From NCBI GenBank assembly GCA_027486835.1, contig JAIXOJ010000199.1:1-53901 (forward strand): a stretch of 53,901 bases of DNA, in the 5' to 3' direction. Below the pieces are notes generated by a model. That model did no database searches and was not told the DNA's origin. It worked only from the letters and a program-made list of their open reading frames with translations. Below are positions 12,446 through 51,560 of the stretch, one piece after another. The translations under genes were made by a program, and so were the position numbers. The stretch comes from Chitinophagaceae bacterium (GTDB taxonomy: Bacteria > Bacteroidota > Bacteroidia > Chitinophagales > Chitinophagaceae). How positions within the stretch are numbered: the first letter of the stretch is position 1; each line of letters begins with the position of its first letter.

Positions 12446-12459
12446 AGGGAACGTTCCCT
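12446..12459 (-). promoter_or_regulatory. Operator-like palindrome AGGGAACGTTCCCT
   Basis: Perfect 14-bp palindrome with a central CG, the layout typical of LacI-family operators. The same core occurs upstream of four other genes here (16375, 32131-32161, 35131, 51545). It is about 640 bases upstream of the adhesin start, further than the other sites, so a long leader or an unseen gene is needed if it controls the adhesin. Confidence 0.5.
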
Positions 12460-12957
12460 TTAGTTGGTGCAATACCATCGCTTTTTTAGGTTTCTCCTTT
12501 GTTAATTTCAGGTATGGTCTAGCCAATTTTCCATTGCTATTTGATTATACTTTCGGGGTTACAATAAAACAAAGGGGTAATATTTGATGGATTTCTAAGG
12601 ATTCTTTGTAATCCATCTTCTAGATGGTGTATAAAGAGATCATACATAACATGTAAAACCACAACAAAACATTTCTTCTTTATACATGAAAAGGTATCAA
12701 TGAAATAACCAGCTACATCAATTAATTGCGTTTTAAAACAACTTTTCGTTTCTATGTTATTTGCTGAATCTCAGTTTGCTTGCCAACAAATGACTTGTTT
12801 ACGACGAATCCCAACAGGAGTTATTGGCGTAACCATCAAATAGGTACAAATCAGCAGCTTTTAATAATTTAAAAAAATGCTTTTTTCTATGCACAACAGA
12901 TTAGTAATGGAATCGACAGGTTTTTAGAAATAACCCTAGCCAAACTTACTTAACATC

Positions 12958-12973
12958 GTGTGTATATACACAC
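12958..12973. repeat. 16-bp perfect palindrome
   Basis: GTGTGTATATACACAC is fully self-complementary and lies 185 bases past the GH43 stop codon. It has no following T run, so it is more likely a protein-binding site or chance alternating purine-pyrimidine sequence than a terminator. Confidence 0.4.
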
Positions 12974-13158
12974 CGCCTTAGCAGGGGGTTTTCAATTGGG
13001 TTTATCCATATTGATTTCAATTTTCATTATTAAAATAAACATTCTAAAACAGGTATGATGCATACAAGAACAAGCAAGTCAGATAGTCCTTACCATAACC
13101 GTACTCCCAAAATTCGATAAAGGATGTTTCAATTTTATCGGTTTATGGTTGTACATTT

Positions 13159-14775
13159 TTACTTACCATCCCTATTCCGATAAGTAAAAAAATCAAAATC
13201 GGCCTTTATCTTTTCCTTGCCACTAGGGTCGCAGGCATAAACACCCACCATTGTGCCATGATACCCATATTTTCCGCCTAAGAAATCGGTATTCTTTACC
13301 TCGCCTGCGGCTTTCCAATGTTTTCCGTCATCACTGTAATAAAAACTACGTACCAAACTGTCGGCTTGCACTTTCAAAAACAATTTCTTATTCGTTGCGA
13401 CGGGGGTCGATTGAAGTTGTTTCATTTTTCCAGACCTGTTTTCTATGAGCAATAACTGATTGCCCGATAGACCTAGTTTAATAAAATTCTTGGTGTTGTA
13501 AAAACATACCATGCCCGCTTGTGCCGACCCTTTTGCCTCAAAATCCATCGAGGTGATGGCTTCTGAATTAATGAATGTCTCCCGCTTTACCACCACGCCC
13601 TTGCTTTTCATCGTGTCTAAATCGTAAGGATGGGTATAAAGGCGTAGATACCCTTTACGCTCTTGCAAGGAAAAATAACTGCTGTCCGGGTTTCTGGAAA
13701 ACTGCCATTCCACTGACAAGGCAGGTTTGCTAAAGTTGTCACGCTCTGTTGTCTTGTATTTTTTTTGGGGCAAATCCGGGGCAGTATTTTCCTCGGTAAT
13801 CCCTTTCCCCTCGTTTACAACGGGCCAGCCATCTTCTCGCCAGGTTAGTTTGTCCAAACTGGTTTCTCTCCCCAATATATTGGCACCATTGATGTTCCGT
13901 TTTGAATGATATACGGCCCACCAATCGCCATTGGGAATCTCCACAAAAGCAGCATGTTCGGTATTGGTGGTGTAGCCCTGCCCATTTTCTATGATCAGTG
14001 GGTTATAGGGACTAGGTTCGTAGGGGCCATAGATGTTTTTTGAACGTGCGATGGCTTGTTGATTGATGCCTGTCTTCATATCGCCGTAAGCCATGGAATG
14101 GTAATAATATCCGTTCCTTTTGTAAATATGCGGCCCTTCAGGATGTCTTTTTTCTTCGCCCCAATTCAACCAAAATGGCCCCTCCACCACTTTGGTACAG
14201 GCCCTGTCAAGTTTCACAATTTTGTTGCCATAGCCCTTTGGTATCCCTGCGGCATACACCATGTAATGCTCCCCATCATCGTCCATAAAATGTGACGGAT
14301 CGTTGCCCTCCGTGGTTAACTGAAGGGGTGTTGACCAAGGCCCATTGATCTGCTTGGCATGAACCACATAATTGCCTCGAACGTTTATTTTCCTGTCGTT
14401 CGTTACATAGACCATGCAATAAAAAATGTAGAATGTTTCATCGAAATACGCAATATCACAGGCCCACACGCCAAGATTATCGGGATAATTATCCAAGAAA
14501 ACATCGCTCTTGGTGTTCAACACATTGGTAATATGTTTCCAATGCACCAAATCCTCCGATTCACAAACACTAATGCCCGGAAAAAATTGAAAGGTGGTAT
14601 TTACCATATAAAATTTCCGCCCTACCCTCACCACCGCTGGGTCGCAATAGGAACCTGGTAAAACGGGGTTATTATATTTCCTGCCACTACTTTCTGTTTT
14701 GTTTTGCGCAACAACCATTGGCACAGTAGATACGATACTTATCAATAGGCATAGCCCGTAAACTAATCTTTTCAT
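13159..14775 (-). CDS. GH43 beta-xylosidase/alpha-arabinofuranosidase-like enzyme, secreted
   Basis: 538 residues with an N-terminal signal peptide (cleavage near VVAQ, residues 21-24). The five-bladed propeller starts with NNPVLPGSYCDPAVV, placing the catalytic base at Asp45. The transition-state Asp is about D159 (NDPSHF) and the acid Glu about E213 (RHPEGPHIY). Residues ~345-530 form a ConA-like C-terminal domain (SVEWQFSRNPDSSYFSL...), as in two-domain GH43 enzymes. Family activity is removal of xylose or arabinose from side chains or oligosaccharides. It follows the 441-aa GH16 gene by 181 bases and probably shares its promoter. The gap holds a repeated GTTAATGGTCAATTG (14847 and 14882) but no terminator. 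Exact specificity cannot be read from sequence. Confidence 0.92.
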   Translation of the reverse strand: MKRLVYGLCLLISIVSTVPMVVAQNKTESSGRKYNNPVLPGSYCDPAVVRVGRKFYMVNTTFQFFPGISVCESEDLVHWKHITNVLNTKSDVFLDNYPDNLGVWACDIAYFDETFYIFYCMVYVTNDRKINVRGNYVVHAKQINGPWSTPLQLTTEGNDPSHFMDDDGEHYMVYAAGIPKGYGNKIVKLDRACTKVVEGPFWLNWGEEKRHPEGPHIYKRNGYYYHSMAYGDMKTGINQQAIARSKNIYGPYEPSPYNPLIIENGQGYTTNTEHAAFVEIPNGDWWAVYHSKRNINGANILGRETSLDKLTWREDGWPVVNEGKGITEENTAPDLPQKKYKTTERDNFSKPALSVEWQFSRNPDSSYFSLQERKGYLRLYTHPYDLDTMKSKGVVVKRETFINSEAITSMDFEAKGSAQAGMVCFYNTKNFIKLGLSGNQLLLIENRSGKMKQLQSTPVATNKKLFLKVQADSLVRSFYYSDDGKHWKAAGEVKNTDFLGGKYGYHGTMVGVYACDPSGKEKIKADFDFFTYRNRDGK

Positions 14776-14956
14776 TCTAATATTATTTTGTAGATGAAAT
14801 TTCAGCAGCGATTAATTAACCTTTATAGGGTTTGAAATCTATATTGGTTAATGGTCAATTGTCAATGGTTAATGGTTGTTAGTTAATGGTCAATTGCACC
14901 AAATCAAACAGTGGGCTTTGGATTCGGAAAACCAAATAAATAGCATCTATCTCCAA

Positions 14957-16282
14957 TTAATCAATCGCGCTAAATACCGCTTCATCCAATTTCAGCACCT
15001 CCCCTTCTTTGCCGATATATTTTATTTCAATGGTTGCCCTATTGCCAGAAACGTTGATGTTTTTTCGTTCCACTTTTTGCCAAGTGTCTGAAACTTTTAT
15101 AGGGATTTCAATGGCTTTTGTTCCAACATAAATGGTAATAACCGATTGGGTTTTCGATTTGCTGCCTTTCACCCATACACTAAAATCGTACTTGCCGTTG
15201 GGAATATATTCTATGATTTGTTTGGCTATAGTAGGGCTGTTGTTTGGGCAACCCAATTCCAAAAACCGTTTGCCCTGTTTCGCTTCCAAACTATCCGTAA
15301 CCACTTTCACCGCATCGGGATTATTGTTCGTTTGGGGAACCACCCATGCTATCGGGTAATTATTTTCGGTATTGCCATATTCAAATCCTGCATTGCCAAT
15401 CAGATTTATGGTGGGTATTTTTTTTGCATAGAAAGTAAAATAGTCCACCTGCATTGCCGCAGATGGGGGCGGAACCGACAACCCTCCCCACCATTTGGTG
15501 GAAACGGGTAAAGCCGTTAGCCAGAAATTTTGTGGGGCATACACCGCCCATTTCCCTTCCAACTTTTTGGTGGAAATAAGTGTGTCGTCGCAATAAAAGT
15601 TGATTTTATCCGGCAACCATTCATAGCCCATCTTTATCCATCGTGTCAAATCTTTTTTAACCTGATGGTTCTTGGGTGCTTCGCTCAAATGGGTAGGCGT
15701 ATAAATATGATAATTCTGGGCCAAGGCATTGTCTTTGGAGTTGTGTTCAAAGCCATCTATTTCCAATACCCTGTTTTCCTTGGGCATTAAGTCTTTGTTT
15801 ACCCAAATATCCCTTACGCCTTTTCCCTCCCCTTCGTTGGTGCCTGTTAGCCCCATCGACCAAAAAGATTGGTGCAGACCGCTCCATTCCGGCTTGCCGC
15901 CATACAGTTTTACCTTGGTTTCATAATATCCGTATCCAAAATTGTGCGTTGACACAATGCCCCCGCCCCTATACTGTTCATCCTTGGGCAAGGTGCTGTC
16001 GTACGTAAAATGTATCGATAAACAGCCGATGTCGCTTCCGTCCGTTGCCTTGCCCACCGTCACATTATCCGGTATGCTCGCTCCGCCCATCTTCTTGTTT
16101 TTCCTAAACATCCAATCTTGTTCGTTGGGTTTGTCCCCTTTATCAAAAGCCTCCTTGTACAGAAGTTGGTATCCGTTGTCAAGCGGTTTGAAAATAGGGT
16201 TTACTGGCGGCTGTTGGGCTTTCAACGTACAGAAAATATTGGAAAGGCAGCTAACCAACAAAATAGGGACAATAGTCTTCAA
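14957..16282 (-). CDS. GH16 endo-glycanase with C-terminal carbohydrate-binding domain
   Basis: 441 residues. The start is TTG at 16282: an in-frame TAG lies two codons upstream, the next Met is residue 58, and MKTIVPILLVSCLSNIFC is a good signal peptide only from this codon. GH16 fold spans ~36-290 with an intact catalytic motif EIDGFE (E174 nucleophile, D176, E179 acid/base). Residues ~295-440 (NLIGNAGFEYG...NGKYDFSVWVKG...) are a CBM4/9/22-type beta-sandwich. The same GH16-CBM pair, more divergent and with a Ser in place of the acid/base, heads the giant protein at 17529-31973. Expected to cut internal bonds in a beta-glucan or galactan and act outside the cell. An operator-like site lies about 95 bases upstream, and a GH43 gene follows. 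Confidence 0.92.
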   Translation of the reverse strand: MKTIVPILLVSCLSNIFCTLKAQQPPVNPIFKPLDNGYQLLYKEAFDKGDKPNEQDWMFRKNKKMGGASIPDNVTVGKATDGSDIGCLSIHFTYDSTLPKDEQYRGGGIVSTHNFGYGYYETKVKLYGGKPEWSGLHQSFWSMGLTGTNEGEGKGVRDIWVNKDLMPKENRVLEIDGFEHNSKDNALAQNYHIYTPTHLSEAPKNHQVKKDLTRWIKMGYEWLPDKINFYCDDTLISTKKLEGKWAVYAPQNFWLTALPVSTKWWGGLSVPPPSAAMQVDYFTFYAKKIPTINLIGNAGFEYGNTENNYPIAWVVPQTNNNPDAVKVVTDSLEAKQGKRFLELGCPNNSPTIAKQIIEYIPNGKYDFSVWVKGSKSKTQSVITIYVGTKAIEIPIKVSDTWQKVERKNINVSGNRATIEIKYIGKEGEVLKLDEAVFSAID

Positions 16283-16374
16283 AGCAATCTAGTTTAAGGG
16301 TGTAAATGTATTTTTTACACCCCACTTCAAATAACCTATCCCTAGGAATCGCTCAAAAAAGCGAGCTTTCAATA

Positions 16375-16390
16375 AGAAACCGTTCCCTTT
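16375..16390 (-). promoter_or_regulatory. Operator-like site upstream of GH16-GH43 pair
   Basis: Read toward the gene the sequence is AAAGGGAACGGTTTCT, matching the AAGGGAACG[G/T]TT core of the other sites. It is about 95 bases upstream of the GH16 start, a plausible place for an operator or activator site. Confidence 0.55.
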
Positions 16391-17528: not shown

Positions 17529-20500
17529 TTATTCCTCCACTTGCAAACGAACCGTCCAAACCGTGCCGTCCCGGCCTTGGACTTTTAATTGGTAAACACC
17601 GATTGCCAATCCGTTGGTGGTCAAGCGGAGGGCATTGGCCTCTGTCGGGGCGAGGTTTTGTTCGGTGCGTACCGCTTTTCCATCTACGCTATACACCGTT
17701 ATGTTATAGCGTTGTTGGGTGGCAACTGATGGCAATTGTACCGTGAACGCTCCTTTGGCGGGGTTGGGATAAATAGAGATTTGTGGTGAGTGGTGAGTGA
17801 TTAGTTGAACTACTTGGCTGTATGCCTTTTGTCCATTCAGCTCCACTAACTGTATTCTGTAATAAACCATTTCCGCATTCTCCGGTAATTGAGCATCCTT
17901 GATGCTGTATTGATTGGATGCAGTCGCTTTTACTGATGCAATTGGTGCGAATGCCACGCCATTGGAACTGCGTTCTACAACATAAGCAACTACATCTTTC
18001 GCATCCCCTACTGTCCAAGCAACCAACGCTTCCCTCCTATCCGTTGCTTTTGCAGTTAATGCAACAAAACGAACAGGTAAGGTAGTGCCTGATGGTTTGG
18101 CGATGAGCAGGAATCTGCTGTCGCCCTTGCTGAGACTATCGGCGGTGATGTTGAAGACATAGCTGCTGCTGTTGCGGATGTTTTGGCTTTGGTTCAAATA
18201 AGTATCGCGAAGCCAATAAGTCTTGTTGCTATCCAAGCCTGCTAGGTCGTTGAAATTGAGTTGGAATGAACCGTTGGCATTGCTTTTTATGGTCAATAAG
18301 ATACTATCTGTGCTATTGGTTAGCGGCAATGTTGCGATGGCCAAACGACTGCTGCCTTTTTGGATGGCGATGTTTTGCGCAGCTCCACCAAAGGTTGCAG
18401 CGTCCCAATCGGCCACATAGGTTTTTGCACCCATGCCGTTGAAGCGCACGATGGCTTCATCGAGGCTGCTATCGCTACTGGTTTTTAATCCGATGCGGAT
18501 CAATTGTTGATTGGCTGTTCCGAAATACTGGGTGTTGGGGATTGTTCCAGATGCTTTGTGGGATTCTTGGAATGTTACCGTACCGCTACCTGTCGGTTTG
18601 GCCTCTACGAAAAAGGATTGACCGCTGGCAATTAAATCGCCGTTGGTATTGTCATAACCTGTTGCAGCGTTGGCAATTAAGCCATTGGAATACGTAGTGT
18701 AATTACCATTACCATAAGGACTGTAGGTCCACATCTTGTTGCTGATATTACTGGTGTTGCTCGACAACAAACTAGTGAAACTGATTTGGCTGGGGTAGGG
18801 ATTGCCCAACAACGTGTATAAATGCGTGGCTGGGTTGTTGAGCGTTACTGCCACATTGCCCGTGCTTACCGTGCCTGTTGATTGTAAGGTAACGGCTACA
18901 GGTGCAGTTGGGGTATTGCTGTTCAACTGGTCGGCACAGGTGCCCACATTGCGGTCGCCACGAATGTTTACCCGATAGCCCTTGCCCGGTTCCAAATTCG
19001 TGTTGGTAGTGCTAGCAATGGTTACCCAACGGCTGCCGTTGCTGCCGGGGGTTGGATTATAGGTAAACATACTTGGGGCGTTCACCTGCGTTTTATCAAA
19101 TCCATTGCTGTTGTACTTGTCCGAGGAGCCTCCATAGTTTACACCAATACCGCAGGTCAGGCCGCCCGTTCCCGGACCCGTGATAAAGATTTGGTTTTGC
19201 CATCCGTTTCGGATGGATTGGTTAGTGGTTGCGGCAATAAAAGCATACTTACGGGTGGTTTTACTGGGTATGAATCGCTCTACGGTCACTGCCCCGTTCA
19301 AATAATTGCCTGTTCCTGCAGCGATGCGGGCGGTATTTGCGGCTGTTGATGTAAGTATCAGTTTATTGTTGGTATTCAATACCCCTGCCGTTGGGGATAG
19401 TGTTCCGATGATTTTCAAGGTATCTGCCAAGTCAACGCCAGCATTATTGTTTACGATCAAATTCTTGACTGCCTTGCCCACGAAACCGCCCGACGGGATG
19501 CTTTGCGCGATACTGCCGTTCATTTCCAAGGTTGCAGCGGAAAGGTCGAGCGTGCCGCTGTTGTTGATGCTACCGCTCACCTGCAAAGTACCCGTAACCG
19601 TGAAAACCGCATTAGCAGTTATTGATAAATTCCTAACCGCACCACTGGTTGTCAATACGGGATAATTGCTCAAACCATTGGGTATCGCAACGTTTACCGA
19701 GGAGGTAGGTAAGATATTGCCGCACCAGTTCCCTGCATCGTTCCATACCGTGGAGGATGCCCCTGTCCATTGATGGTTCGTGGCAGTTGCCAAACTGGTT
19801 ACCCCATAGGCACTTGCGCCACCATTGTTCACCGCTGCAATACGGTAGTAATAGGTGGTGTTGGCGGTAAGATTGGTGAGGGCTTGACTTAAAGCCGCAG
19901 GTTGAATATTGGTGAGGGTGGTTACGGACGCACTAAAATTGGCCGTTGGGGAATATTGCAAAGTATAGGTATAACTCGCTCCACCTTGATTGGTGGGGGC
20001 AGTCCAATTGATGGTAGCTATGTCCGTACACACGTTCGTAGCTGCTGCAAAAACGGGTGCGTTGCTAAGGGTGGTTACCTGTTGACCGGAAGACCAAGCA
20101 CTTTGGCCTGTTCCATTCAAGGTTGCCACACGATAATAATACACGGTATTAGATGCAAGCCCCGTTAGGTCGTTAGCAGTAACCGATGAAGAAATAGAGG
20201 TGATGGTTGTTACAGAAGCACTAAAATCAGCGGTTGTACTGTATTGTAAGGAATAAGAAAAAGACGCATTTCCCCCTGTTGGTGCAGTCCAATTGGCTGT
20301 GAAACCATTGGTTGCAATATTCGTAGCTGCCGCAATGGTTGGAGTAGCAGGCATGGTGAGGAACGTACTATCCTCCGAATAAAAAGTTCCTAATCCATTG
20401 GTGACATAGCCCCGATAATAATAAGGCGTATTGGGTACCAGTGTATCGCGTGTATGCGTGTAAGTACCAATGGTTGTTGATCCTTCGGCCAAAGCATTCG

Positions 20501-23500
20501 TGGTTGGCTTGGCTGTTGTGCCATATACCGTACCCCTTGCGGTAATGGTAGCATTGGAATTGGTCGAAATGGTAGCTCCAAGTGTGGCCGAGGTTGCAGT
20601 AATGGACGTTACCGTTGGTTTTCTTACAGATAAAATGCCATACACGTTTGTTTGATCGGTGATGATGGCCGTAGCGTCTGCTTCATTGATTGCGGTACTT
20701 GTTGAACCATAGAACAATAGTTCCGGACAGTTTCCCTCATAGAAGGTATTCACAAAACCAGTATAACCAAAGATTTGGGGCTGCGTGGCATCCAATACCG
20801 TTGCGTTGGATGCTCCCAAGAAATCTTTCACGCCCGTATTGGCATTAAAAGAGGTATAGATATAAGCAGAATCGGTGTTGGAAACAATAAAGGTCCGAAG
20901 CCTAGCCGCGGCCAACAAGCCTTGCGAAAAGGAGGCTGCTTGGGCAGTGGTATTTCCGGTGGTCAACGATTTGTAGATACTGTTCGTGCCCGATCTGGAC
21001 AAATTGAATTGGAACCGATTGGTGACTCCCGTGCCCACTGCACCACTGTTCAAAAGTCCGTTGTCGTTGTTTAGGTTGCCCAATTGTTGTGCGGTTACAA
21101 ATACATTGAAGTATTTCATGCCTTGCAAATTGGTGCCGCCCCCATCGTTGGTGAAATTGGTAATCGCCAAGGGCGCACCATTGAATACGCCGTTCATCAT
21201 CCTGAGCGAAGGCATCCCATTGGCCAAGGTATCCAAAACCCCTGCGTTTATCAATCGAGGCTGGCTCACAAAACCATAAGCTGAACTGCTAAGGGTTGTA
21301 GTGGCAGCAGATTTTAATGCAATGGTGGTGGTATTGTTACTGTACAAAGAATCCACAACGCCGATAACCTGACCTGTGGTGTTCGAGAGCAGGTTGCCGG
21401 GCGATACATTGGAAATCGTCAAAGTGGTGGAAGCGGGAATGCTGGCAGCGTTGGACATAGATATCACAATCGGATTGCCAGAAAAACCAGTCACGACCGT
21501 GTTGGCTGGAACACCATTGCCCACAATGGAATAGCCTGTACGGATGGTACTATTGGAACTCGATGTTGTGGTTACGGTAGTGCTATTGGTGGTTGCTGTT
21601 GCTGAACTGGTAAAGCTCGTATTGGCCAGACCTGTTACCGTAGCGATTCTTGAACCACTGGTGGTGGAGATGGTACTGGAAGATTTTGTGGTGACAGCCG
21701 CATTGGAAAAAGCATTCCGTCCATTCCCACTTTGATCGTACCAGATGGTAACAAAAGCAGAATTTGTACCTACAAAAGCAGCGAGCGTAGTGCTTGTGGC
21801 CGCACCAATACCTGCTCCCGATAAAACGGCTGACACCGGAGAAGTGAGCGATACCCGTTGCTTGGCATCAAAATATACATCCACCGAATCGTTGGTGGCG
21901 TTGTCTTTTCTTATCCTAAGGGCCGGCCCAGTATAGGCAGTTCTTAATTGACGAACAGAATAAGCAAACGTGGGCTGTGCATTTAGATTGTCCAAAATGC
22001 CAGAAATTGGCTGACTGGTCACCAAGGTTTGGGTGGATGACCATGCACTCGCACCGCCTTGATTGACCACTTGCACCCGATAGTAATAAGTTACATTGGA
22101 ACCAAGACCAGAAACCGCCGTTGACAATGCGGAGGATGCAATGCCCGAAACCGTGGTAATGCCACTGCTAAAATTAGCAGCGGTAGAATATTGTAAAGTA
22201 TATGTATAAGCAGCACCGCCCTGACTGATGGGGGCTGTCCAATTAGCTGTGAATCCAACAATAGTGATGGCACTTGCTGCTGTTGAAGTGGGTGGCAAGG
22301 ATAGCGTAGCGATCGTAGTCGTAGCTGTATATGCTGAATTTCCAGTTGCATTTACGGACATCACACGGAAATAATAATTGGTATTTGCGGTAAGTCCTGA
22401 GATGACCGTGTTCAAGGTTGCGATATTGGCAACCGTTGTGTTGCCTGCACTGAAATCAGCAGCGGTGGAATATTGTAATGAATAAGTGAACGCAGATGCA
22501 CCCTGATTGGCAGGTGCAGTCCATCCTATTGTACATCCTGTCGTTGAAATATTGCTGGCAATTAAACCAATTGGCGCATTTGGCAACAACAAAACAGACT
22601 GTATAGCAGACCAATCACCCGTTCCCCCACTGTTCACCGCTGCAACTCGATAGTAATAATTGGTATTTGCTGTCAAGGAACTAACCACATTGTTTAGGGT
22701 AGCAATCCCACTAACCGTGCTATTGTCCAAACTAAAATCAGCGGTGGTGCTGTATTGCAACGTGTAGGTAAATGTCGCATTCCCACCTGTTGGGGCTGTC
22801 CAATTGCCTGTGAAGCTGGTTGAAACGATATTGGTAGCGGCGGCAATGGTGGGTGCCAGCGGCAAGGTTGTGGCAGTCAACGTAGCGGAATAATTACCCA
22901 AACCTGTGGCGTTTAATACGGCTATTCGGATGTAGTATGATGTATTGGCCGTCAATCCTGTCAATGCTTGGTTGATGGCTGTGCCTGAAATACTAGCAAT
23001 TGTTGTTACCGAAGAACTAAAATCGGAGGTGGTGGCATATTGCAAAGTATAGGTGTAGTTGGCTGCCCCTTGGTTGGCCGGTGCCGTCCAATTGACCGTA
23101 AAGCCTGTTGCAGTTATGGCACTTGCGGTCAAACCTGTGGGTACGTTGCTTAGTGTTACCAACGACTGAACAGCAGACCAAGCACTACTACCAGTAGCAT
23201 TTACTGCTTGAACACGGTAGTAGAGGGTAGTATTGGGTAATAATCCCGTAACGGATACACTGTTTACTGCGGATGAAATTGCGGTTACGCTGCTATTGCC
23301 CGAACTAAAATCAGCAGTGGTACTGTATTGCAACGTGTAGGTAAATGTCGCATTCCCACCTGTTGGGGCTGTCCAATTGGCCGTGAAGCTGGAAGATGTG
23401 ATGTTCGTGGCGGCGGCAATCGTGGGTGCAGCAGCATTGGTCAGTACAGCTTGAATAGCACTTGCTATACTGTTGCCACCACTGTTTACTGCAACTACCT

Positions 23501-40939: not shown

Positions 40940-40980
40940 ACAATTTTTTTTGACCGTTAAATGATAGAATTTGAAATAAA

Positions 40981-42587: not shown

Positions 42588-42724
42588 AATTCCTAATTGA
42601 TTGCTATAAACCTTAAACTTTTGCATACTTTTTTTCATTAAATATTGCCCATAAACAACACTTTATTCATCATAATTACAATCACTTTTAACCGAGATAG
42701 GTTATCTTATACCAAATACTTCTT

Positions 42725-45103
42725 TTACCATTTAACGGATGTGCTTTCTGAGAAATAAACCTCTTTTCTATCTTTCAAAACAGGTTGCCCTTTCAATACT
42801 ATCTCCTGCTGCAAGCGTATATCTGCAGAGGAAGCCCCTATTTTGAGTTCATATTTTCCGGGGGAAATGGTCCATTTGCTGTTGCTATAATGAGCCAAAA
42901 CCTGTGGGGCAATGGAGAACGTGACCTTCTTCTTTTCCCCAGGCTTTAGGCTCACACGTTCGAAACCTTTCAATTGTATAGGTTTCAGGGGCTGACCGTC
43001 TTTGGGGAATAAATACAGTTGTACGATTTCAGTCCCAGCCCTTTTGCCCGTGTTTTTGACGGAGCAAGACACTGTAAATGATTTATTGGAAGTGGCAATA
43101 GTTTTCGGTGCTTGGATATTGGAGTATTGATAATTGGTATAGGACAAACCATAACCAAAAGGATGGCTCACCAATTCGGGCGTAGCGGTAAGGTCGTTGT
43201 AACAAATCTGCGCCTTGCTTTCGGTCTTGGGATAGCTGACGCACAATTTACCTGAAGGATATACATTGCCCAATAACAGATCTGCTACTGCATTGCCGCC
43301 TTCTTCGCCGGGATACCAAGCTTGCAGTACGGCAGCACATTGCGCTTCCAAACCTTCCACCACCTGCGACCGACCTCCGAACACCACCAACACCACGGGC
43401 TTGCCTGTGGCTATCAATTCCTTCACAAATTTCTCTTGGTCGCCCGGCAAACGGATACCTTTTCTTTCCCTTCCTTCCCCACAAAGGGTGGGGTTTTCGC
43501 CTACGGCAGCAATGATCACATCGCTGTTGGCAGACAATTCAATCCCTTTTTTCCAATCCGTAGGGTCGGCAGATTGCATCAGCATAAGCTTCAATGCTTT
43601 GGTGCGCGGGTCGCTATCGCCAGTGCGAATAATCCCTGCTTCATTGCTGCTGCTCCAGTCGCAGCCACGCTCATAATTCAATACCACTTTTTTATCTAGC
43701 TTTTGCTGCAACGCCTCGCGAAGGGTAACGAGCTTGGGATTGTTGGGATCCACTTTTCCGCCCCACCAAAACGAATACATCGATTGATAGGTATAATCGC
43801 CCAATAAGCACCAAAACGTATTGGCATTTGGCCCAACCAAGGCTATTTTCTGCAGTTTATTTTGCAAGGGCAAAATGCCGTTGTTTTTCAGCATCACCAC
43901 CGATTCGCAAGCAAGGTCGTAGGCCACTTTGCGGTATTCCGGCTTGTCGATATTGATTTTTCCTTCGCTATACAGGACAGGGTTTTTGTCCAACAAACCG
44001 AGGTTGGCCTTTAGGGTCAACGCCCTTTTTACTGCTTCTTCAAAACGTTGTTCCGTCACCAAACTGTCCTTGATGGCTTCAAACAAATATGGATAGCTGA
44101 TGGGGTCGCTAAATTCCAGGTCGTTGCCTGCATTAATGGCAGCCACACCCCTTGCCTTGAGTTCCTTAGGCGAATTGCCTGTCCATTGCCTGCTGATTGC
44201 AGAATAATCGCTCACCACAATGCCATCAAAACCGATGTATTTTCTCAATATTTCTTTCAAAAGCGTATCGCTCGAGACGGTATTCTTACCTCTGAATTGA
44301 TGATAGCCCGTCATTACTGCCTTACTGTTTCCTTGGCGAATCATGGCTTCGTGGGGAAATAAATATTCTTCCATCAGTTCTTTATCGCCCAGTTCTTTGC
44401 CAGAGCCATACGCCAAAAAATGTTTGCTACAAGCCGCAACGCCGTATTTCAAGCCCTTGCGCTGCAAGCCGTCCACAAAGGCCACACCCATGCTCGCGGA
44501 CAAATAAGCATCTTCCCCATAGCTCTCTTCCAATCGGGGCCAATGGGCAGTCCTAATCACATCGACCATTGGCGACAAAGCCATTGTTCCGCCTATGGAT
44601 CGCATGGCTTCAGCTGTTTGTTCTGTTTTTTTGGCGGCCAATTTGGTGTCCCATGTACAGGCCACGCCTATTTGTTGGGGATAAACCGTTGCACCGAGGG
44701 CAGCAACACCTGTAATGGCTTCTTCGTGGAAAATGGCAGGGATGCCCGATGGGGTTTCCTTGACCAAATAGTTTTGGAGTTCCTTTACAAAATCACGCAA
44801 TTGATCTGACCCCAAATCCAATGCGCAGGCATATTGACTGATATGCCCGATGCCGTTGGGAATCACTTTTCTGCATTTTTCGATTGATAACTTACCTTTT
44901 TCCAACAATGCAATAGGGCGGATGCCGCTCAATTGCGCCAACCTTTCGTTTGGCCTCAATCGGTTATACACCGAATCCACTAAATGTTGAATAGCAGGGG
45001 TGGAAAAAGGCTGTTGTTTCAAAGGGGAACTAGGGTGGTTTTGCCCATGGCCCACATGGACGACAAAGGCAAACACTGTAGTAGTAACAAAAAAACGCTT
45101 CAT
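42725..45103 (-). CDS. GH3 beta-glycosidase, secreted
   Basis: 792 residues from the ATG at 45103 (MKRFFVTTTVFAFVVHVGHG signal peptide); the 15 upstream codons add nothing protein-like. The N-terminal barrel has the KH motif (CSKHFLAYG, ~225) and nucleophile Asp ~299 in GIVVSDYSAI. The alpha/beta sandwich domain (~405-620) contains GPNANTFWCLLGDY and LPGDQEKFV. The C-terminal FnIII-like domain (~680-770) includes KNTGKRAGTEIVQLY. The family releases glucose or xylose from the non-reducing ends of beta-linked oligosaccharides, so it would finish what GH16 and GH30 start. It lies downstream of the 41-bp array and may have its own promoter in the ~100 bases before the ATG. Confidence 0.95.
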   Translation of the reverse strand: MKRFFVTTTVFAFVVHVGHGQNHPSSPLKQQPFSTPAIQHLVDSVYNRLRPNERLAQLSGIRPIALLEKGKLSIEKCRKVIPNGIGHISQYACALDLGSDQLRDFVKELQNYLVKETPSGIPAIFHEEAITGVAALGATVYPQQIGVACTWDTKLAAKKTEQTAEAMRSIGGTMALSPMVDVIRTAHWPRLEESYGEDAYLSASMGVAFVDGLQRKGLKYGVAACSKHFLAYGSGKELGDKELMEEYLFPHEAMIRQGNSKAVMTGYHQFRGKNTVSSDTLLKEILRKYIGFDGIVVSDYSAISRQWTGNSPKELKARGVAAINAGNDLEFSDPISYPYLFEAIKDSLVTEQRFEEAVKRALTLKANLGLLDKNPVLYSEGKINIDKPEYRKVAYDLACESVVMLKNNGILPLQNKLQKIALVGPNANTFWCLLGDYTYQSMYSFWWGGKVDPNNPKLVTLREALQQKLDKKVVLNYERGCDWSSSNEAGIIRTGDSDPRTKALKLMLMQSADPTDWKKGIELSANSDVIIAAVGENPTLCGEGRERKGIRLPGDQEKFVKELIATGKPVVLVVFGGRSQVVEGLEAQCAAVLQAWYPGEEGGNAVADLLLGNVYPSGKLCVSYPKTESKAQICYNDLTATPELVSHPFGYGLSYTNYQYSNIQAPKTIATSNKSFTVSCSVKNTGKRAGTEIVQLYLFPKDGQPLKPIQLKGFERVSLKPGEKKKVTFSIAPQVLAHYSNSKWTISPGKYELKIGASSADIRLQQEIVLKGQPVLKDRKEVYFSESTSVKW

Positions 45104-45199
45104 AACTAATTTAAAATTACTGTCCTTAAAACAGTGGATGTAGTGCAAAGGGAAATTCCTTTTTGGCGATGATAAAGCCAGGACAAACTGAGCTTTATC

Positions 45200-45479
45200 A
45201 AGGCAGACCGAGAACTCGGTTGGTTCAAAACAAGCTACTTGAAGCTGACCGACAACTCGGTTGGCTCAAAACAGGTTGCATGAAGCTGACCGAGAACTCG
45301 GTTTGCTCAAAACAGGCTGCATGAAGCTGACCGACAACTCGGTTTGCTCAAAACAGGCTGCATGAAGCTGACCGACAACTCGGTTGGTTCAAAACAGGCT
45401 GCATGAAGCTGACCGACAACTCGGTTGGTTCAAAACAAGCTGCATGAAGCTGACCGAGAACTCGGTTGGTTCAAAACAA
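45200..45479. repeat. Seven 41-bp tandem repeats between GH29 and GH3
   Basis: Units start at 45200, 45241, 45282, 45323, 45364, 45405 and 45446, exactly 41 apart. Each holds GAAGCTGACCGA(G/C)AACTCGG followed by TTGGTTCAAAACA. In units with G at the variable position, ACCGAG and CTCGGT form perfect 6-bp arms around AA; with C the arm has one mismatch. The flanks and the first unit are slightly diverged, the middle ones nearly identical. Lying in the 424-base gap, it may be protein-binding sites or RNA hairpins that separate GH29 from GH3 expression. Confidence 0.93.
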
Positions 45480-45527
45480 TCGGAAAGAAACCGTCAAACT
45501 TGTTAGCCAACAATTCATCTTTCCTTA

Positions 45528-47219
45528 TCAATCTGCACGGTACAACAACCATTCGCCCAAGCTTGGCGGGACTTTTTCATTCTTCAATTGCAATCTAAAT
45601 TTCTGTGCCTTCACTTGTATGAACGTCTCTGTGGAGCCAGTACCTTCTGAAGTGGAACTGATTACTTCCTTCCATTCCTTTCCATCAAAATATTCGAGGG
45701 TATGTTGTTGTTTTACGCCCGACCAAGGATGCCAAGGTTCTACCAATGCCATCCCAATGATGTTGTAGGCTGCGCCCAAATCAATTTCCAGCGTTGCATT
45801 CTTTTCTCCTTTGGCTGCGGCCCATTTTGTTTTAGGATCTCCATCTGTAAGTAGGGACGCATTGCTTGCAGAGTCATTGGACGAAACAACAGGCAGTTTA
45901 TTAGCAGTTGGGGGCTGTGACACCAACGGTTCGCCCTCAAATTCAACCGCAACCACCGATGCTACCCTATCCGGGGCATATGCAGGAAGTTGTATGGTGC
46001 TTTTGCCCTTTGAGGCTATGACAGACAAATTCTTCTTTCTATCCGCCAATAAATAAGCTTTCGTGATTTTGTTGCCCAAGGGCACATCCAATTTGCCATC
46101 GGCTGGCCAATCGAACACATGCATATAGAGTGTTTGCCCTTTTCGTGTAGCCCTGCCCCAAGAAAGGAAGGGGAAGGGGCTGCCCTTTGTGCCATAAACC
46201 GCCTCGCCATTCAGCTTGAGCCATTCGCCCATTTCCTTGAGGTTTTGCTGACATACTTCTGGAATGATGCCCTCGGAAGTGGGGCCTACGTTCAATAGGA
46301 AATTGCCCCCTTTGCTCACGATATCCACGAGTTTCACAATCAATTCCTTGGTGCTTTTCCAATTTTCATCGTAGGCATTGTAGCCCCAATGACCGTTCAT
46401 AGTCATGCACACTTCCCAGTTTTTGCCAGGAAACCCCGTAGCTGGAATGAACTGTTCGGGCGTTTCGAGGTCGCCACCAACGCCGCCGCCCAATCTGTTG
46501 TTCGTGATAAGATTGGGATAGGGCTTCAGTTCATTAGAAATTTTTTCTGCCATTTCCTTGGTGATGCCAATTGGGGTATCCCACCACAAAACAGCCACAT
46601 CGCCATAGTTTGTCAATATTTCCTTTACCTGCGGCACAACGATGTCGTCCACATATTTTTTCATGTCGCCCACATGCGAAGAATCCCAATTTTTCCCAGA
46701 AACAGCACCTCCTTTGTGGTGCCAATCTTGCGCTTGCGAATAGTAGAAACCAAGCTTCATGTCGTACTTACGGCAGGCTTCCGCCAATTCCTTGAGAATA
46801 TCCCGTTTGAAAGGGGTGGCATCCACCATATTGAAATCGGAAGCATTGGATTTGAACATTGCAAACCCATCATGGTGCTTGGAGGTAATGACCATGTATT
46901 TCTGGCCCGCAGCCTTGGCCACTTTCACCCATTCCTCGGCATTGAACTTAGTTGGATTGAATTTTTTGGTCAACTGTGCATATTCGTTGACCGATATTTT
47001 GGCAGAATTCATGATCCACTCACCAAAATGCGTTTTTTCGCCCCATCTTCCCGCAGGAACTGAATAAACACCCCAATGGATGAACATGCCAAACTTGGCA
47101 TCTTTCCACCAATCCATTTTGGGGTCGTCTTTTTTTGTTTGGATACGCACATCCACATTTTGCGCATGAATGTTCATTGCACCGCACAGCAACAGCATTG
47201 CCCATATACATTTTCTCAT
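45528..47219 (-). CDS. GH29 alpha-L-fucosidase with C-terminal discoidin domain
   Basis: 563 residues from the ATG at 47219 (MRKCIWAMLLLCGAMNIHAQ signal peptide). Family signatures: WWKDAKFGMFIHWGVYSVPA, YMVITSKHHDGFAMF, and the nucleophile Asp (~214) in VAVLWWDTPIG. WEVCMTMNGHWGYN and GGNFLLNVGPTSEG are typical of the Bacteroidota branch of the family. Residues ~430-560 are an F5/8C (CBM32-like) domain (TDGDPKTKWAA...LEIDLG...). GH29 enzymes retain configuration and remove fucose from alpha-1,2/3/4/6 linkages. The gene starts 44 bases after the GH43-like gene, so it is in the same operon. With GH95 it gives two mechanistically different fucosidases in one locus. Confidence 0.95.
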   Translation of the reverse strand: MRKCIWAMLLLCGAMNIHAQNVDVRIQTKKDDPKMDWWKDAKFGMFIHWGVYSVPAGRWGEKTHFGEWIMNSAKISVNEYAQLTKKFNPTKFNAEEWVKVAKAAGQKYMVITSKHHDGFAMFKSNASDFNMVDATPFKRDILKELAEACRKYDMKLGFYYSQAQDWHHKGGAVSGKNWDSSHVGDMKKYVDDIVVPQVKEILTNYGDVAVLWWDTPIGITKEMAEKISNELKPYPNLITNNRLGGGVGGDLETPEQFIPATGFPGKNWEVCMTMNGHWGYNAYDENWKSTKELIVKLVDIVSKGGNFLLNVGPTSEGIIPEVCQQNLKEMGEWLKLNGEAVYGTKGSPFPFLSWGRATRKGQTLYMHVFDWPADGKLDVPLGNKITKAYLLADRKKNLSVIASKGKSTIQLPAYAPDRVASVVAVEFEGEPLVSQPPTANKLPVVSSNDSASNASLLTDGDPKTKWAAAKGEKNATLEIDLGAAYNIIGMALVEPWHPWSGVKQQHTLEYFDGKEWKEVISSTSEGTGSTETFIQVKAQKFRLQLKNEKVPPSLGEWLLYRAD

Positions 47220-47263
47220 CGTTAATCCTATTTTATCCATTAATAAATATTCCTTTAAATTTT

Positions 47264-48394
47264 CTATTTGGTAGTGAATTTCAGCGGTATCGCCACGTTT
47301 ACCGAGTATTTTCTTTTTTCAAAGCCCAAAGCCCCGAACAATAATTTGGGTACCCCCTTTTCGGTATATAAACATGGGCGTTCCAATTTATCGTCAGCGG
47401 TAGTCCCGTCTTCAAATTGCAATTTCAAGGGAATGACTTTCGGATATTTTGAAGGCAACCAATTGATGCCGTCCTTGGAACTCAATATGGACAAGGGCGA
47501 CTGCTTGTCGGTAAAATAGCCAACCACGTCCCGAACAATGGCATAATTGGTTCCCTTGTAATTCCATAGATAAGGGTCTTCTGCCAACATCCAAACACTG
47601 TCCTTGCCCTTTGTTTTGCCCTCGAAAATGGGTTGGGGATATTTTTCAAAAGGACCCAGCAACGACTTGGAAAATGCCACCCCAAAATGCACTTTGCCAC
47701 CTTTCAATGCCTTGCCCCTTGACACTTCCTTGTAAACCAATACTGCCCTGCCGCTGGGTTCAATGGTAATGGCTGGATTGGACACCATTAGGGCATCGAG
47801 TGCCGAACTGTCTTTACTAACATCAAGCACAGGTTTGTCAAAACGCTTCCATTCGCCCTCGGGGTCATCGGCAACTGCCACACCAATGCGTTGGTTGTTG
47901 CGGTATTCCCACCAGTTGGGTTCTTTCATGGAAGCAGGCATGGACACTTGTGAAGTGCCCGTTGTGCCCATGTAAAAAAGATAAAACTTCCCTTTGTACA
48001 CAATCGCCGCAGGGTTGTGGGTACACACACCGTCCCAATATTGGTTCCCCCTTGGTGGCAACACCACTTTCACATGGTGGTAAGGCCCTTCGGGCTTGTC
48101 GGCCTTTGCCAAGGCTATTTCGGATTTTGGGATCCAGGCAAAATGCCCCCCCGAACGTGGCCAACGGCTGTACAGCATATAAAATTTTCCATTATTGCCC
48201 CGAACCACCGAACCGCACCAAATATTATAGGCCGTATCGGAAAATAAATTCGCTTTGGGTATGGGCTGCACCATCGAAAACAGGTCAACACTATCCATTG
48301 AAATCAAATTCCCTTTCTTGTCTATCTGCTGTGCATTGCCCCAAAGACAAGCCATACCCAAACCTATCAACCCAACTAATTTTTTCATCCTCAT
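47264..48394 (-). CDS. GH43-like five-bladed beta-propeller hydrolase, secreted
   Basis: 376 residues with signal peptide (MRMKKLVGLIGLGMACLWGN, cleavage near AQQ). Repeated blade patterns (GKFYMLYSRWP, GKFYLFYMGTT, GRAVLVYKE, TNYAIVRDVVG) and HNPAAIVYKGKFYLFY are characteristic of GH43/GH117-type propellers. The usual DPxI motif at the first blade is replaced by NIWCGSVVRG, so it belongs to a divergent group whose activity I cannot name. AEDPYLWNYKG near residue 275 may provide an acidic catalytic residue. It begins 21 bases after the 998-aa GH16 gene and ends 44 before GH29, a tight operon position. Removal of a side-chain sugar is the reasonable guess. Confidence 0.85.
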   Translation of the reverse strand: MRMKKLVGLIGLGMACLWGNAQQIDKKGNLISMDSVDLFSMVQPIPKANLFSDTAYNIWCGSVVRGNNGKFYMLYSRWPRSGGHFAWIPKSEIALAKADKPEGPYHHVKVVLPPRGNQYWDGVCTHNPAAIVYKGKFYLFYMGTTGTSQVSMPASMKEPNWWEYRNNQRIGVAVADDPEGEWKRFDKPVLDVSKDSSALDALMVSNPAITIEPSGRAVLVYKEVSRGKALKGGKVHFGVAFSKSLLGPFEKYPQPIFEGKTKGKDSVWMLAEDPYLWNYKGTNYAIVRDVVGYFTDKQSPLSILSSKDGINWLPSKYPKVIPLKLQFEDGTTADDKLERPCLYTEKGVPKLLFGALGFEKRKYSVNVAIPLKFTTK

Positions 48395-48415
48395 TCACTT
48401 TCGGGCTTTCCCTTT

Positions 48416-51412
48416 TTATTTTGTTTTAAATGTTATGGTTTCATCGCTCCCCAATGCTTCCCCTACCCTATCCTTGATGGCTTTTTTTACCACAATCTTG
48501 TAGGTGGAAGCAGGCAACAATGGGTTATTGAACTTAATGCGCACTTTGAGCGATGTGAGCACTTCCACGGAAAAATCAACGGCTTTATTTTGTTTTCCTA
48601 CGGTTACTTCAAATCCATTTTTCGTGATGGTTTCCTTGTCGAAGGGTTTGTTGAAAGCAATGACAGGTTGAATGTTTGGGGCCACGCCCGATGATTTATC
48701 TTGTGGCAAGCAATGCGTTGGATCGACTTGCAATTTCCAACTGGCTTTTTTATAAATCCTAACCCAATCGGCAGCCATGAAAGACCCATCGATACGATCA
48801 CGATCTAAGGGTCCATCGAAATAGGTAACAATGGTACTGATCCAAAAACCATAAGGCACCTGTGTAGTGTTTTTTGGGCCAGCATACAAACGGGGATAAT
48901 CCTTCACTTCGTAAGATATTTTACCATCGATACCATAAAACAAATCTTTGGGGTCGAGATAGGCAGAGATGGTATGAAAATCGTGGGCGAAATTGGTGTT
49001 GATCTTGAAATTATTAAAATTCTCTGGCTTCCTTAAAAAGTAATTGTTGTTGGAAACGCCATTGGGATAAGTGCCTTCGTTGTAATTGAAATCGCCACCT
49101 GGCCCCGCCGATGTCCAAAAGGAAGTATGAGAACCATAGGCTTTGTCAGGGTATTTGTAGCGGGCTTCAAAAAAGCCATTTTGCTGCGTGAAATTAGACA
49201 CGATTTCCCCGCTGCTATAAGGCACCAAATGATTATCGAAATAATTGAAACCCTTGTACACCCCATCTTCCACCACACTATTCTCTGCCCATTTTGCGCT
49301 CAGCCCTTTGAACCTTAATTGATTGGACAATTTCCATTTATTGGGGTCGATGTTATCGCCATTGAATTCATCGTTAAACGTCATTTCCCAATCGGCATTT
49401 GAGGGTGGGCCTGAATGCAATACCTGCTCATAAAACTCCTTCAGCAATACGGTTGCTTCGGCTTTTGAAAGGCTTTTGCCAATGGCTTCCTTATTGATGT
49501 CGGTATTTTTTACTACGCCCAAGGTAAGCAACCTATTGGCCGCTTCTTGGCAAAAAGCGGGCAATTCTGCTATAGGGTTTGATTTGGAAAATAGGTTGGT
49601 CACGTTTAAATACTTACCAGCAATTTCTAGGGCATTGTTCATCACTTGCAAGGCCAATGAAAGTGAAACAGGTTCATTAGGATTCGGGGATTCCATCGGC
49701 AAGCCGAGCCAAAGACTTTTTGTTGGCACAACGAAGCTATCGCTCTCCAACATTTTAGAAAGGGCATTGGTAAAATCGCCCACTGGCATGGGTTCGTTGG
49801 GCGCAAAGTGTTGCTTGTCTTTTGGGCTGACCAACCCCTTTTGCACCATGAAACTGATGTCATGTTGTTGCGGAATGTTCTTGGTATCCTCGTAAACCAA
49901 TTCTTTGAAATAGGGATGTCCTGTGATAATCCTTTGCTGCAAAATGGCACCGCCTGCTATTTTCTTTTCAAACAACATATCCGATGCACGGTCTATTTGC
50001 CCTTCCATGACCAAGTATTCGTCTGCTTGGTTTCCAGCAAAAAAGAATTCCCCCAATTTGGTTAATCCACCCTTGACCACTGCGCTTTTGGGGACATCTA
50101 CTTTATCGGTCTTTCCATTGTGCAAAATGGTAAACCTGCCATCGCCCTTCACCGTCCAATAAGCATAATAATACACGGAATAGCTGCCCGAATCAACGAT
50201 TAAGGGATTCCAATAATAAGGCAGTTTGGTATTCTTGATATAGTAGGGTCTTCCGTAGAAAGTCATCCCGTTTTTTGCGCTTGTTTGCACATCATCTTCC
50301 TTGTAAATGGGGGAAAACCCTGGTAGAATTGCCGTATTGGTCTCTTTATCTGCAATGGAAATAGTTGGCTTGGCAGGATTATCCTTTCCATTAAAGGATT
50401 GGGTGGTTACCAATATTCGGTTCACGATAGTGCCATCAAATAAGGTGGATTCGAAATAGACACAATCAGCGAATGAAGTATCGGTGCTGGTTTTGGTCAT
50501 TCGAACATATTCTTTTCCATCGCCTGAAAAATCAAATTCACCCAACTTGTACCAACCCTGATCCACAACAGGATTATAAATATTGGCATTGGCAAATTGC
50601 ATGTATTTCAACGCCACAAAATCCACCTTTCCATCGTGGACTATTTCGTAATGATCATTTGCAGCCACATTTGGACGGAACACATAAACGCCCATTTTCC
50701 CTTTGACATATGCACCTGGGTTCCACAAGCAAACCGCTCCTTTGGTAGTCGATTTTTTTGCCAAGGAATTGACCAAAAAACCTTTTTGTACGCCCGTCTC
50801 CCATTGACCCAAAGTAGAAAAACCAAGGGGATAATTGCCCTTCGTTTCTTCGGTAGTGCGTTTTCTTGGCTTGGTATCGAAATAATAATCAAAGCGTAGC
50901 GTAGGGGCTATCGTGCTTACGTTCAGGTTGCTGTTCAATCGTTGCACACGCACAAATTCGTTTGGGTTGCCCTTGAATGCAAATTTCCCAAGGCTGTACC
51001 AACCTGTTTTAGCTGCGGTCAGCGTTACATTGTGGATGGTATCCAACTTATCGGCATGGGAAACGATACATTCAGTCTTGGCATCGATGCGTTTTGATAG
51101 CTCAACATCAGCCCAATTTTTAAACACCATAATTTCAACCTCGCCTTCCATGCCCGCTATATCAGTAAAGGCGTAATCGGCGTATTCACCTTCTTGGGTT
51201 GTTGAAGGATACCTAAGCCTATTTGGGAATTCAAATCGTTTAGACCAATTGCTTTTATTGGAATAAGTGCAACCATTGTCACTTGCCACCACCACCTTTC
51301 TGGTAATCAATCGAAGCTGTGCATGAGAAGCAAAGCAGCACAAAAATGGTAGAACCACAATGAAAATGTAACTGCGAAATTTTTTTTCCGTGCAAAGCAA
51401 TTCGTTAATCAT
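48416..51412 (-). CDS. GH16-like protein with golvesin-like, SLH-like and Ig-like domains
   Basis: 998 residues from the ATG at 51412 (two TTG codons precede it in frame). Signal peptide around YIFIVVLPFLCCFASHA. Three related beta modules (~30-180, 200-325, 365-490) carry GWYSLGKFAFKG / GWYKLGEFDFSG, like golvesin/Xly-type domains. Two SLH-like segments follow (~503-555 with HFAPNEPMPVGDFTNALSKM; ~600-660 with GVVKNT...LSKAEATVLL). GH16 spans ~676-889, but the catalytic motif reads DFNYNE (D774, N776, E779): the nucleophile Glu is Asp and the middle Asp is Asn. A SbsA-type Ig domain ends it (~895-998). It may be a binding or anchoring protein or a slow enzyme. It heads the seven-GH series and has an operator-like site ~130 bases upstream. 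Confidence 0.9.
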   Translation of the reverse strand: MINELLCTEKKFRSYIFIVVLPFLCCFASHAQLRLITRKVVVASDNGCTYSNKSNWSKRFEFPNRLRYPSTTQEGEYADYAFTDIAGMEGEVEIMVFKNWADVELSKRIDAKTECIVSHADKLDTIHNVTLTAAKTGWYSLGKFAFKGNPNEFVRVQRLNSNLNVSTIAPTLRFDYYFDTKPRKRTTEETKGNYPLGFSTLGQWETGVQKGFLVNSLAKKSTTKGAVCLWNPGAYVKGKMGVYVFRPNVAANDHYEIVHDGKVDFVALKYMQFANANIYNPVVDQGWYKLGEFDFSGDGKEYVRMTKTSTDTSFADCVYFESTLFDGTIVNRILVTTQSFNGKDNPAKPTISIADKETNTAILPGFSPIYKEDDVQTSAKNGMTFYGRPYYIKNTKLPYYWNPLIVDSGSYSVYYYAYWTVKGDGRFTILHNGKTDKVDVPKSAVVKGGLTKLGEFFFAGNQADEYLVMEGQIDRASDMLFEKKIAGGAILQQRIITGHPYFKELVYEDTKNIPQQHDISFMVQKGLVSPKDKQHFAPNEPMPVGDFTNALSKMLESDSFVVPTKSLWLGLPMESPNPNEPVSLSLALQVMNNALEIAGKYLNVTNLFSKSNPIAELPAFCQEAANRLLTLGVVKNTDINKEAIGKSLSKAEATVLLKEFYEQVLHSGPPSNADWEMTFNDEFNGDNIDPNKWKLSNQLRFKGLSAKWAENSVVEDGVYKGFNYFDNHLVPYSSGEIVSNFTQQNGFFEARYKYPDKAYGSHTSFWTSAGPGGDFNYNEGTYPNGVSNNNYFLRKPENFNNFKINTNFAHDFHTISAYLDPKDLFYGIDGKISYEVKDYPRLYAGPKNTTQVPYGFWISTIVTYFDGPLDRDRIDGSFMAADWVRIYKKASWKLQVDPTHCLPQDKSSGVAPNIQPVIAFNKPFDKETITKNGFEVTVGKQNKAVDFSVEVLTSLKVRIKFNNPLLPASTYKIVVKKAIKDRVGEALGSDETITFKTK

Positions 51413-51544
51413 CAACAATTCATTATAGCGTTAAAACAATATCTTATGCTGCTGTGCAGCCATCACTTGAGCAAAACAAATGAAACGACCAGCATAATTT
51501 CTATTCGATTAACCTTTTTAGGCCAAAACCATGGAAATAAAGAG

Positions 51545-51560
51545 AAACCGTTCCCTTTGA
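51545..51560 (-). promoter_or_regulatory. Operator-like site heading the GH series
   Basis: Read toward the gene: TCAAAGGGAACGGTTT, nearly identical to the site at 16375 and to one of the pair at 32131. It lies about 130 bases upstream of the 998-aa GH16-like gene. No further copy was seen between this point and GH95, consistent with one regulated unit. Confidence 0.58.

Follow-up and report, generated by a model that had tools for sequence, protein, structure and literature searches.

We examined 53,901 nucleotides from a Chitinophagaceae bacterium (GenBank assembly GCA_027486835.1, contig JAIXOJ010000199.1; the window, below, is this whole stretch), in which six copies of a short operator-like motif lie upstream of genes for glycoside hydrolases (GH) and giant secreted proteins. 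Judged from sequence, a single regulator of the LacI type very probably binds the motif. Its gene would lie in another part of the genome, and the likely candidate is the LacI-family protein of a second contig, C118. We consider it probable that the sites are operators from which the C118 LacI activates a susC-susD pair together with five dispersed units of the window, at sigma-ABfr promoters. The reading is carried by the motif itself, its association with a single LacI clade, its retention in front of orthologous genes and its fixed spacing to the predicted -7 promoter element.

A search of the window for AGGGAACGTTCCCT with up to three mismatches returns six matches at five loci (12446, 16375, 32130, 32148, 35130 and 51543), the same six sites that the initial annotation had reported; the mean in 100 shuffles was 1.66, and none of the 100 gave six. 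All six are intergenic by our own gene list, in a window of which only ~15% is non-coding, and all six face minus-strand genes, in keeping with the common orientation described earlier. The distances to the called starts are 93 bp for 16375, 145 and 163 bp for 32130 and 32148, 96 bp for 35130 and 125 bp for 51543, so that the four loci said to lie ~95-190 bases before starts measure 93-163 bp; at the fifth, 12446, the distance is 578 bp. Pfam assignments and site positions agree with the units that had been named behind those four loci, and the two perfect palindromes with a central CG are 12446 and 32148. By itself, the strict pattern AAGGGAACGKTT has three matches in the window. The sites, the candidate -7 boxes scored against a six-base consensus, and the putative targets are as follows.

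12446..12459, minus strand: predicted operator, perfect palindrome AGGGAACGTTCCCT, before the 3422-aa secreted protein, whose called start is 11868
12373..12380, minus strand: candidate -7 box TACTTTTA, 5/6, 66 bp below the 12446 operator
1600..11868, minus strand: 3422-aa secreted protein, no Pfam match; putative target of 12446
16375..16388, minus strand: predicted operator, asymmetric AGGGAACGGTTTCT, before GH16 and GH43
16303..16310, minus strand: candidate -7 box TACATTTA, 5/6, 65 bp below the 16375 operator
13159..16282, minus strand: GH43 (13159-14775) and GH16 (14957-16282), by Pfam; putative targets of 16375
32148..32161, minus strand: predicted distal operator of a tandem pair, perfect palindrome, before the 4818-aa protein with FN3 repeats and a type IX secretion system (T9SS) tail
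32130..32143, minus strand: predicted operator AGGGAACGGTTTCT, proximal member of the pair, at 18 bp from 32148
32076..32083, minus strand: candidate -7 box TCATTTTG, 5/6, downstream of both operators, 65 bp from the distal and 47 bp from the proximal one
17529..31985, minus strand: 4818-aa protein, FN3 repeats and T9SS sorting tail; putative target of 32130/32148
35130..35143, minus strand: predicted operator AGGGAACGTTTCCT, before GH2
35058..35065, minus strand: candidate -7 box TAGCTTTG, 6/6, 65 bp below the 35130 operator
32215..35034, minus strand: GH2, by Pfam; putative target of 35130
51543..51556, minus strand: predicted operator AGGGAACGGTTTCT, before the seven-GH series
51472..51479, minus strand: candidate -7 box TTGTTTTG, 5/6, 64 bp below 51543; a second 5/6 match lies at 59
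37298..51418, minus strand: GH16-GH43-GH29-GH3-GH16-GH30-GH95 series, by Pfam; putative target of 51543

Three exact copies of the palindrome AGGGAACGTTCCCT are present in the genome of 6,398,453 bases, against 0.014 expected under a dinucleotide model taken from the window: two in the window and one at C118:15608-15621. The pattern AAGGGAACGKTTYCT with at most one mismatch occurs six times in the window and five times elsewhere, inside open reading frames (ORFs) on C47 and C55 and outside ORFs of at least 100 aa on C141, C188 and C218. By these one-mismatch counts, close matches do not show the pattern that the initial annotation had named as refuting its reading, equal frequency in coding regions and at unrelated promoters. 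With two mismatches allowed, the genome gives 28 forward and 27 reverse matches, against 51 and 39 for a reversed-pattern control; because these counts fall under the control, the looser matches are background, and a wider own-genome regulon built on them was rejected. A match with an AT centre at C150 (GGGAATATTCCC) is used for no claim, nor is the asymmetric 15-mer used as a genus-wide motif (six matches with one mismatch outside the own genome, in 4/12 genomes); promoters of orthologues were located through their genes.

The genome has five genes with a LacI helix-turn-helix (HTH), one of which, at C118:14319-15335 on the minus strand, encodes a 338-aa protein with an N-terminal LacI HTH (PF00356, 44.7 bits, cut-off 27) and a periplasmic-binding-protein-like ligand domain (PF13377, 118.2 bits; PF00532, 111.6 bits). 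It has LacI domains only, with no predicted periplasmic sensor, and the best solved-structure match of P0001 is CcpA (3oqo; E 5.9e-54). The third exact palindrome lies in the divergent gap beside this gene, with the lacI start 272 bp away on one side and the susC start 136 bp away on the other. Behind susC follow susD, a flavin adenine dinucleotide (FAD) oxidoreductase, an SSF symporter and a GH43, and the domains found (Plug, CarbopepD_reg_2, SusD_RagB, GH43) give C118 the make-up of a polysaccharide utilization locus, that is, susC-susD with carbohydrate-active enzymes. None of the listed genome motif matches lies near the other four LacI genes.

The association between protein and motif extends to relatives. 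We searched 195 genomes of the family with the C118 LacI, counting proteins of at least 55% identity as orthologues, and found nine besides the own one (L060-L068), each with the motif by lacI (9/9). Further orthologues occur in three Chitinophagaceae metagenome-assembled genomes (MAGs; 78%) and in Pedobacter helvus (60%); among the 13 genomes of the genus, own included, the orthologue is present in five others, namely G344 (75%), G398 (68%) and the three MAGs at 78%, recognised by contig and coordinates. Altogether GGGAAYRTTCCC-type sites stand beside lacI in 15/15 relatives at or above 55% identity; in Pedobacter the pair is placed after lacI, ahead of the FAD oxidoreductase gene. Matches near lacI are few and weaker at the 20 loci whose LacI is at most 52% identical (L069-L088), with GGGAACGTTACC (one mismatch) at L077, two-mismatch matches at L072, L074, L078, L079 and L083, and no match near lacI at the other 14. 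In a tree of 43 LacI proteins, the 16 motif-bearing rows all fall in one fork of 17 (support 100/99).

In many relatives the motif is doubled. The tandem pattern GGGAAYRTTCCC-N7-GGGAAYRTTCCC, with at most two mismatches, is found in 23 of 394 family genomes, and its reversed control matched once (G085). A LacI orthologue was seen in 21 of these 23: nine belong to the 195 genomes searched with LacI, of which eight have an orthologue at or above the threshold and G135 has none above 38%, and 13 of the remaining 14 have one, the other being G305, in which no LacI was found in the three loci covered (L203-L205). Counted by genome handle, the pair thus occurs in eight of the nine genomes with an orthologue of at least 55% and in one (G135) of the remaining 185. 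That the tandem pair tracks the orthologue, together with the sites beside lacI in all 15 relatives, is why we take the C118 LacI as the likely regulator. The pitch of 62 pairs in the fetched loci is 19 in 61 cases and 20 in one; ten of the pairs lie inside a mechanically called ORF, each less than 200 bp from its first ATG, so these ORF starts may have been called too early. The own genome has a single pair, 32130/32148, with a pitch of 18, and otherwise single sites. A gene for a ~443-aa protein stands repeatedly behind a tandem pair (L118, L184, L200, L203), with a AAAGATTG-like string near the -7 position; its L118 copy has no Pfam match.

Sites are also kept at orthologues of the window genes (positions are the start of the 12-mer relative to the start codon). 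Homologues of the 4818-aa protein have pairs at -135/-116 in G135 (79%) and at -182/-163 in G344 (77%), and the orthologue of the 3422-aa protein in G135 (76%) has a pair at -321/-302. For GH2, the site lies at -108 in the own genome and GGGAACGATTTC lies at -107 in G367 and G289; for GH16 of the seven-GH series, the positions are -137 in the own genome, -134 in G367 and G289 and, counted from an estimated start, -123 in G135. Because their upstream regions are near-identical, G367 and G289 do not count as independent. Same-genus orthologues therefore keep the site for four of the five window units, the four that were traced into relatives (12446, 32130/32148, 35130 and 51543). GH2 orthologues of at least 56% occur in four other genomes of the genus (G367, G289, G135, as a fragment at a contig end, and G344), three of which have LacI.

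Promoters in Bacteroidota carry TAnnTTTG at -7 and, close to -33, TTTG (PMC7366714). We counted the spacing from the end of the site, or of the distal site of a pair, to a match of at least 5/6 to TAnnTTTG. In all six predicted own promoters, the five window loci and C118 susC, such a match lies 64-66 bp downstream of the site; with the maximum taken over all offsets, 0/5000 shuffles reached five, and some of the six promoters have extra 5/6 matches elsewhere. The relatives are the cleaner test, and there the match at 64-66 occurs on 41 of 71 target sides, or 23 of 42 non-redundant ones (the largest number in 200 shuffles being 6), and on 23 of 24 susC sides. On the lacI sides of relatives it occurs in 0/17; in 12 of these 17 a -7-like box lies at 36-38, a spacing that would put -33 under the operator. 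Orthologues of two window genes also keep a box, at 65 for GH2 in G367 and G289 (TAGATTTG) and at 64-65 for GH16 of the seven-GH series (TAGCTTCG or TAGTTTCG). A conserved -33 box was dropped, its placement being weak; in Flavobacterium johnsoniae a -33 box could not be identified either (PMC7366714).

The initial proposal that the scattered units share a LacI-type operator is thus backed by the lacI gene beside the only other exact copy, by the clade-linked motif and by the site kept at orthologues of four of the five units. Its further suggestion, that they form one regulon although the window contains no LacI gene, stands in refined form, with the putative regulator on another contig and a geometry that fits activation better than classical repression.

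From these arrangements we infer binding, activation, a sugar effector and autorepression, in the following scheme. The C118 LacI would bind GGGAAYRTTCCC-type palindromes, single or, in relatives, in tandem with a 19-bp pitch, at operators centred about -82 (distal) and -63 (proximal), if the transcription start is placed ~11 bp past the beginning of the -7 box. Bound LacI would help RNA polymerase at sigma-ABfr promoters and so activate the targets, and the regulon would comprise C118 susC-susD with its neighbours, the two giant secreted proteins, GH16-GH43, GH2 and the seven-GH series. With a LacI protein in control, the signal would be an already imported sugar. The pair and the likely lacI promoter overlap in many relatives, and this geometry suggests that LacI probably represses its own gene there. 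A LacI protein would then turn on secreted enzymes encoded far away along with a susCD locus, one motif and one spacing rule would predict the regulon in many Chitinophagaceae genomes, and the rule would offer a simple test of how an activator contacts the unusual Bacteroidota RNA polymerase.

Several observations weigh against this scheme. L071 falls within the LacI clade and has no motif, the sole exception in the fork of 17, and G135 has pairs and target orthologues with no LacI above 38%. Three of the six window sites (16375, 32130 and 51543) lack symmetry, their right half being weak, and many sites of relatives have a central CA or TG; 12446, 32148 and C118:15608 are exact even palindromes with a central CG, and 35130 is one with a single mismatch. 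The asymmetric sites might be odd-centred operators of the kind of natural lacO1, as GGGAAC-G-GTTTC suggests, although GGGAACGATTTC of the orthologues does not. No site lies in the 450 bp covered at the GH2 homologues in G344 (56%) and G398 (34%). In G203 and G398, LacI is present, but the GH16 at 51418 finds no match there and GH2 no orthologue above 34%. The spacing was first noticed in the own six promoters and then tested, with the distal site of the own pair picked after it had been seen; 19 of the 42 non-redundant target sides lack a match at 64-66, and the -33 box is weakly placed. These misses include the ~443-aa protein class, with AAAGATTG (4/6) near 65, and the 4818-aa homologue of G135 (4/6), and some of the sides concerned may not be promoters. 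Finally, G344 lacI has a target-like -7 match at 65, and the 272 bp between site and own lacI start cloud autoregulation in the own genome, as do lacI starts ~90 to 400 bp from the sites for autorepression in the own genus.

The same LacI might serve the same regulon as a repressor, acting by upstream looping or by blocking an activator until a sugar releases it, which we regard as unlikely but deserving of weight. Characterised sugar-responsive LacI-family proteins are mostly repressors, and a tandem arrangement is well suited to cooperative binding. Over 75% of the sites of LacI-family regulators fall between 140 and 30 bp ahead of the start codon (PMC4052901), and most of the present ones do so too. 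At the targets, however, the sites end well before the predicted core promoters, neither overlapping them nor lying just below, and keep 64-66 bp in 6/6 own promoters and 23/24 susC sides, whereas a blocking site needs no constant spacing and the lacI sides show a different geometry. Sites at a fixed distance upstream of the predicted promoters, as here except for 19 of 42 non-redundant target sides that lack the box, are what an activator that touches RNA polymerase would need. This geometry suggests that the regulator switches its targets on, unlike the textbook lac repressor, and about two thirds of our confidence goes to activation rather than another mode.

It is very improbable that the motif belongs to a different regulator, such as the HTH_3/HTH_31 protein at 16524-17165 or an extracytoplasmic function (ECF) sigma factor reading GGAAC. 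An XRE-like gene does adjoin site 16375, GGAAC resembles ECF -35 boxes, and G135 carries sites without a LacI orthologue, but the exact copy by lacI, the 16 of 17 clade rows and the palindrome with its 19-bp tandem pitch would be left unexplained. ECF promoters have ~16-17 bp between -35 and -10, against the 64-66 bp found here, and GGAAC as an ECF -35 was rejected on that spacing. To chance, or to a dispersed repeat without regulatory role, we give next to no credence: genome counts with up to two mismatches are background, but the close matches far exceed expectation and are kept at orthologous promoters. Returning to the activating LacI, we lean slightly toward a broader proposal, in which the Chitinophagaceae/Pedobacter clade would comprise dedicated polysaccharide-regulon activators that use palindromes in tandem with a 19-bp pitch, set invariably at one distance ahead of sigma-ABfr promoters. 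At their own gene the geometry would be reversed to that of repression, and they would form a one-component counterpart of the membrane activators, hybrid two-component systems (HTCS) and SusR.

Like the C118 LacI, CcpA and Cra/FruR belong to the LacI family; both repress and activate, and activation is known for CcpA. They differ in being global central-carbon regulators rather than regulators of a susCD locus, and the parts of PMC4052901 covered here, which report activation by Cra and list Cra and PckR as dual regulators, describe for neither CcpA nor Cra/FruR a 19-bp tandem array placed at a constant distance from the promoter. For PckR of the Rhizobiales, a predicted dual regulator, the mode was likewise predicted from site position relative to promoters, but it serves central metabolism in Alphaproteobacteria and has its own motif (PMC4052901). 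In the same source, LacI-family sites are palindromes of even length whose centre is CG in most cases, autoregulation applies in 72%, and tandem-site distances peak at 13, 22 and 32 bp (Ravcheev 2014). RafR and ScrR, which have double sites only, read as obligatory cooperative binding, have them 21-22 bp apart, against 19 bp start-to-start here (PMC4052901). In Bacteroides, KdgR, UxaR, UxuR and UxmR are LacI-family proteins of Bacteroidota, as here, but are assigned to glucuronate, galacturonate and mannuronate; in that account, monosaccharides fall to LacI proteins, and the regulators given for polysaccharide loci are membrane-bound HTCS and SusR-like ones (Ravcheev 2013; PMC3878776). HTCS and SusR switch on susCD loci (PMC3878776), as proposed for the C118 LacI, but are membrane sensors with direct-repeat sites, whereas here there are palindromes and a protein with LacI domains only. 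A review gives HTCS, ECF sigma factors and catabolite repression as the canonical regulation of hemicellulases (PMC10766802), and among the matches listed, the titles and abstract openings of the open-licence PMC literature held no description of the present regulon.

Some observations concern the lacI neighbourhood and its contents. At L130:9977 a single GGGAACGTTCCC adjoins susC and susD genes that resemble those of C118 at 48% and 53%, and a nearby 738-aa ORF matches LacI at only 32%. The FAD oxidoreductase and SSF symporter (L049:9196-13269) recur in the regulon, the former at 62-69% in G162, G006 and Pedobacter, and other genes vary between genera (GH97, GH3, beta-helix, GDSL, SASA esterase). 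Near lacI, L048:1103-11026 encodes a 3307-aa secreted protein whose C-terminal part is common to the window giants (43% over 503 aa with the 3422-aa one) and which begins with RCC1-like repeats (HSLFLKNDGTVWATG); a DDE transposase gene (L048:13012-13719) adjoins lacI. Because a homologue (64%) of the 3422-aa protein adjoins lacI in a same-genus MAG (L091), C118 and C7 may be, or may once have been, neighbours.

In the window, none of the 15 proteins scanned is a SusC or SusD. Naming a substrate from NCBIfam and PDB was given up, since no protein of ten passed the NCBIfam cut-off and the PDB signals are mixed, GH30 being nearest endo-1,6-beta-glucanase, GH2 nearest beta-galactosidases and the GH43 at 47264-48394 weakly near anhydro-alpha-L-galactosidases (E 1.6e-7, behind two hypothetical proteins with a best E of 1.8e-8). 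This GH43-like protein and the one at L049:13452-14510 are 43-45% alike. Transcription from the -7 box at 12380 would give the 3422-aa gene a leader of ~500 nt (within 11869-13158); its G135 orthologue likewise has a long one, the site ending 309 bp before the called start with a -7 match at 66. From 51419 to the contig end at 53901, ~2.5 kb carry no ORF of at least 100 aa, and a small protein at 966-1415 matches PF21300 (grass antifreeze beta roll) at 31.8 bits, the cut-off being 30.

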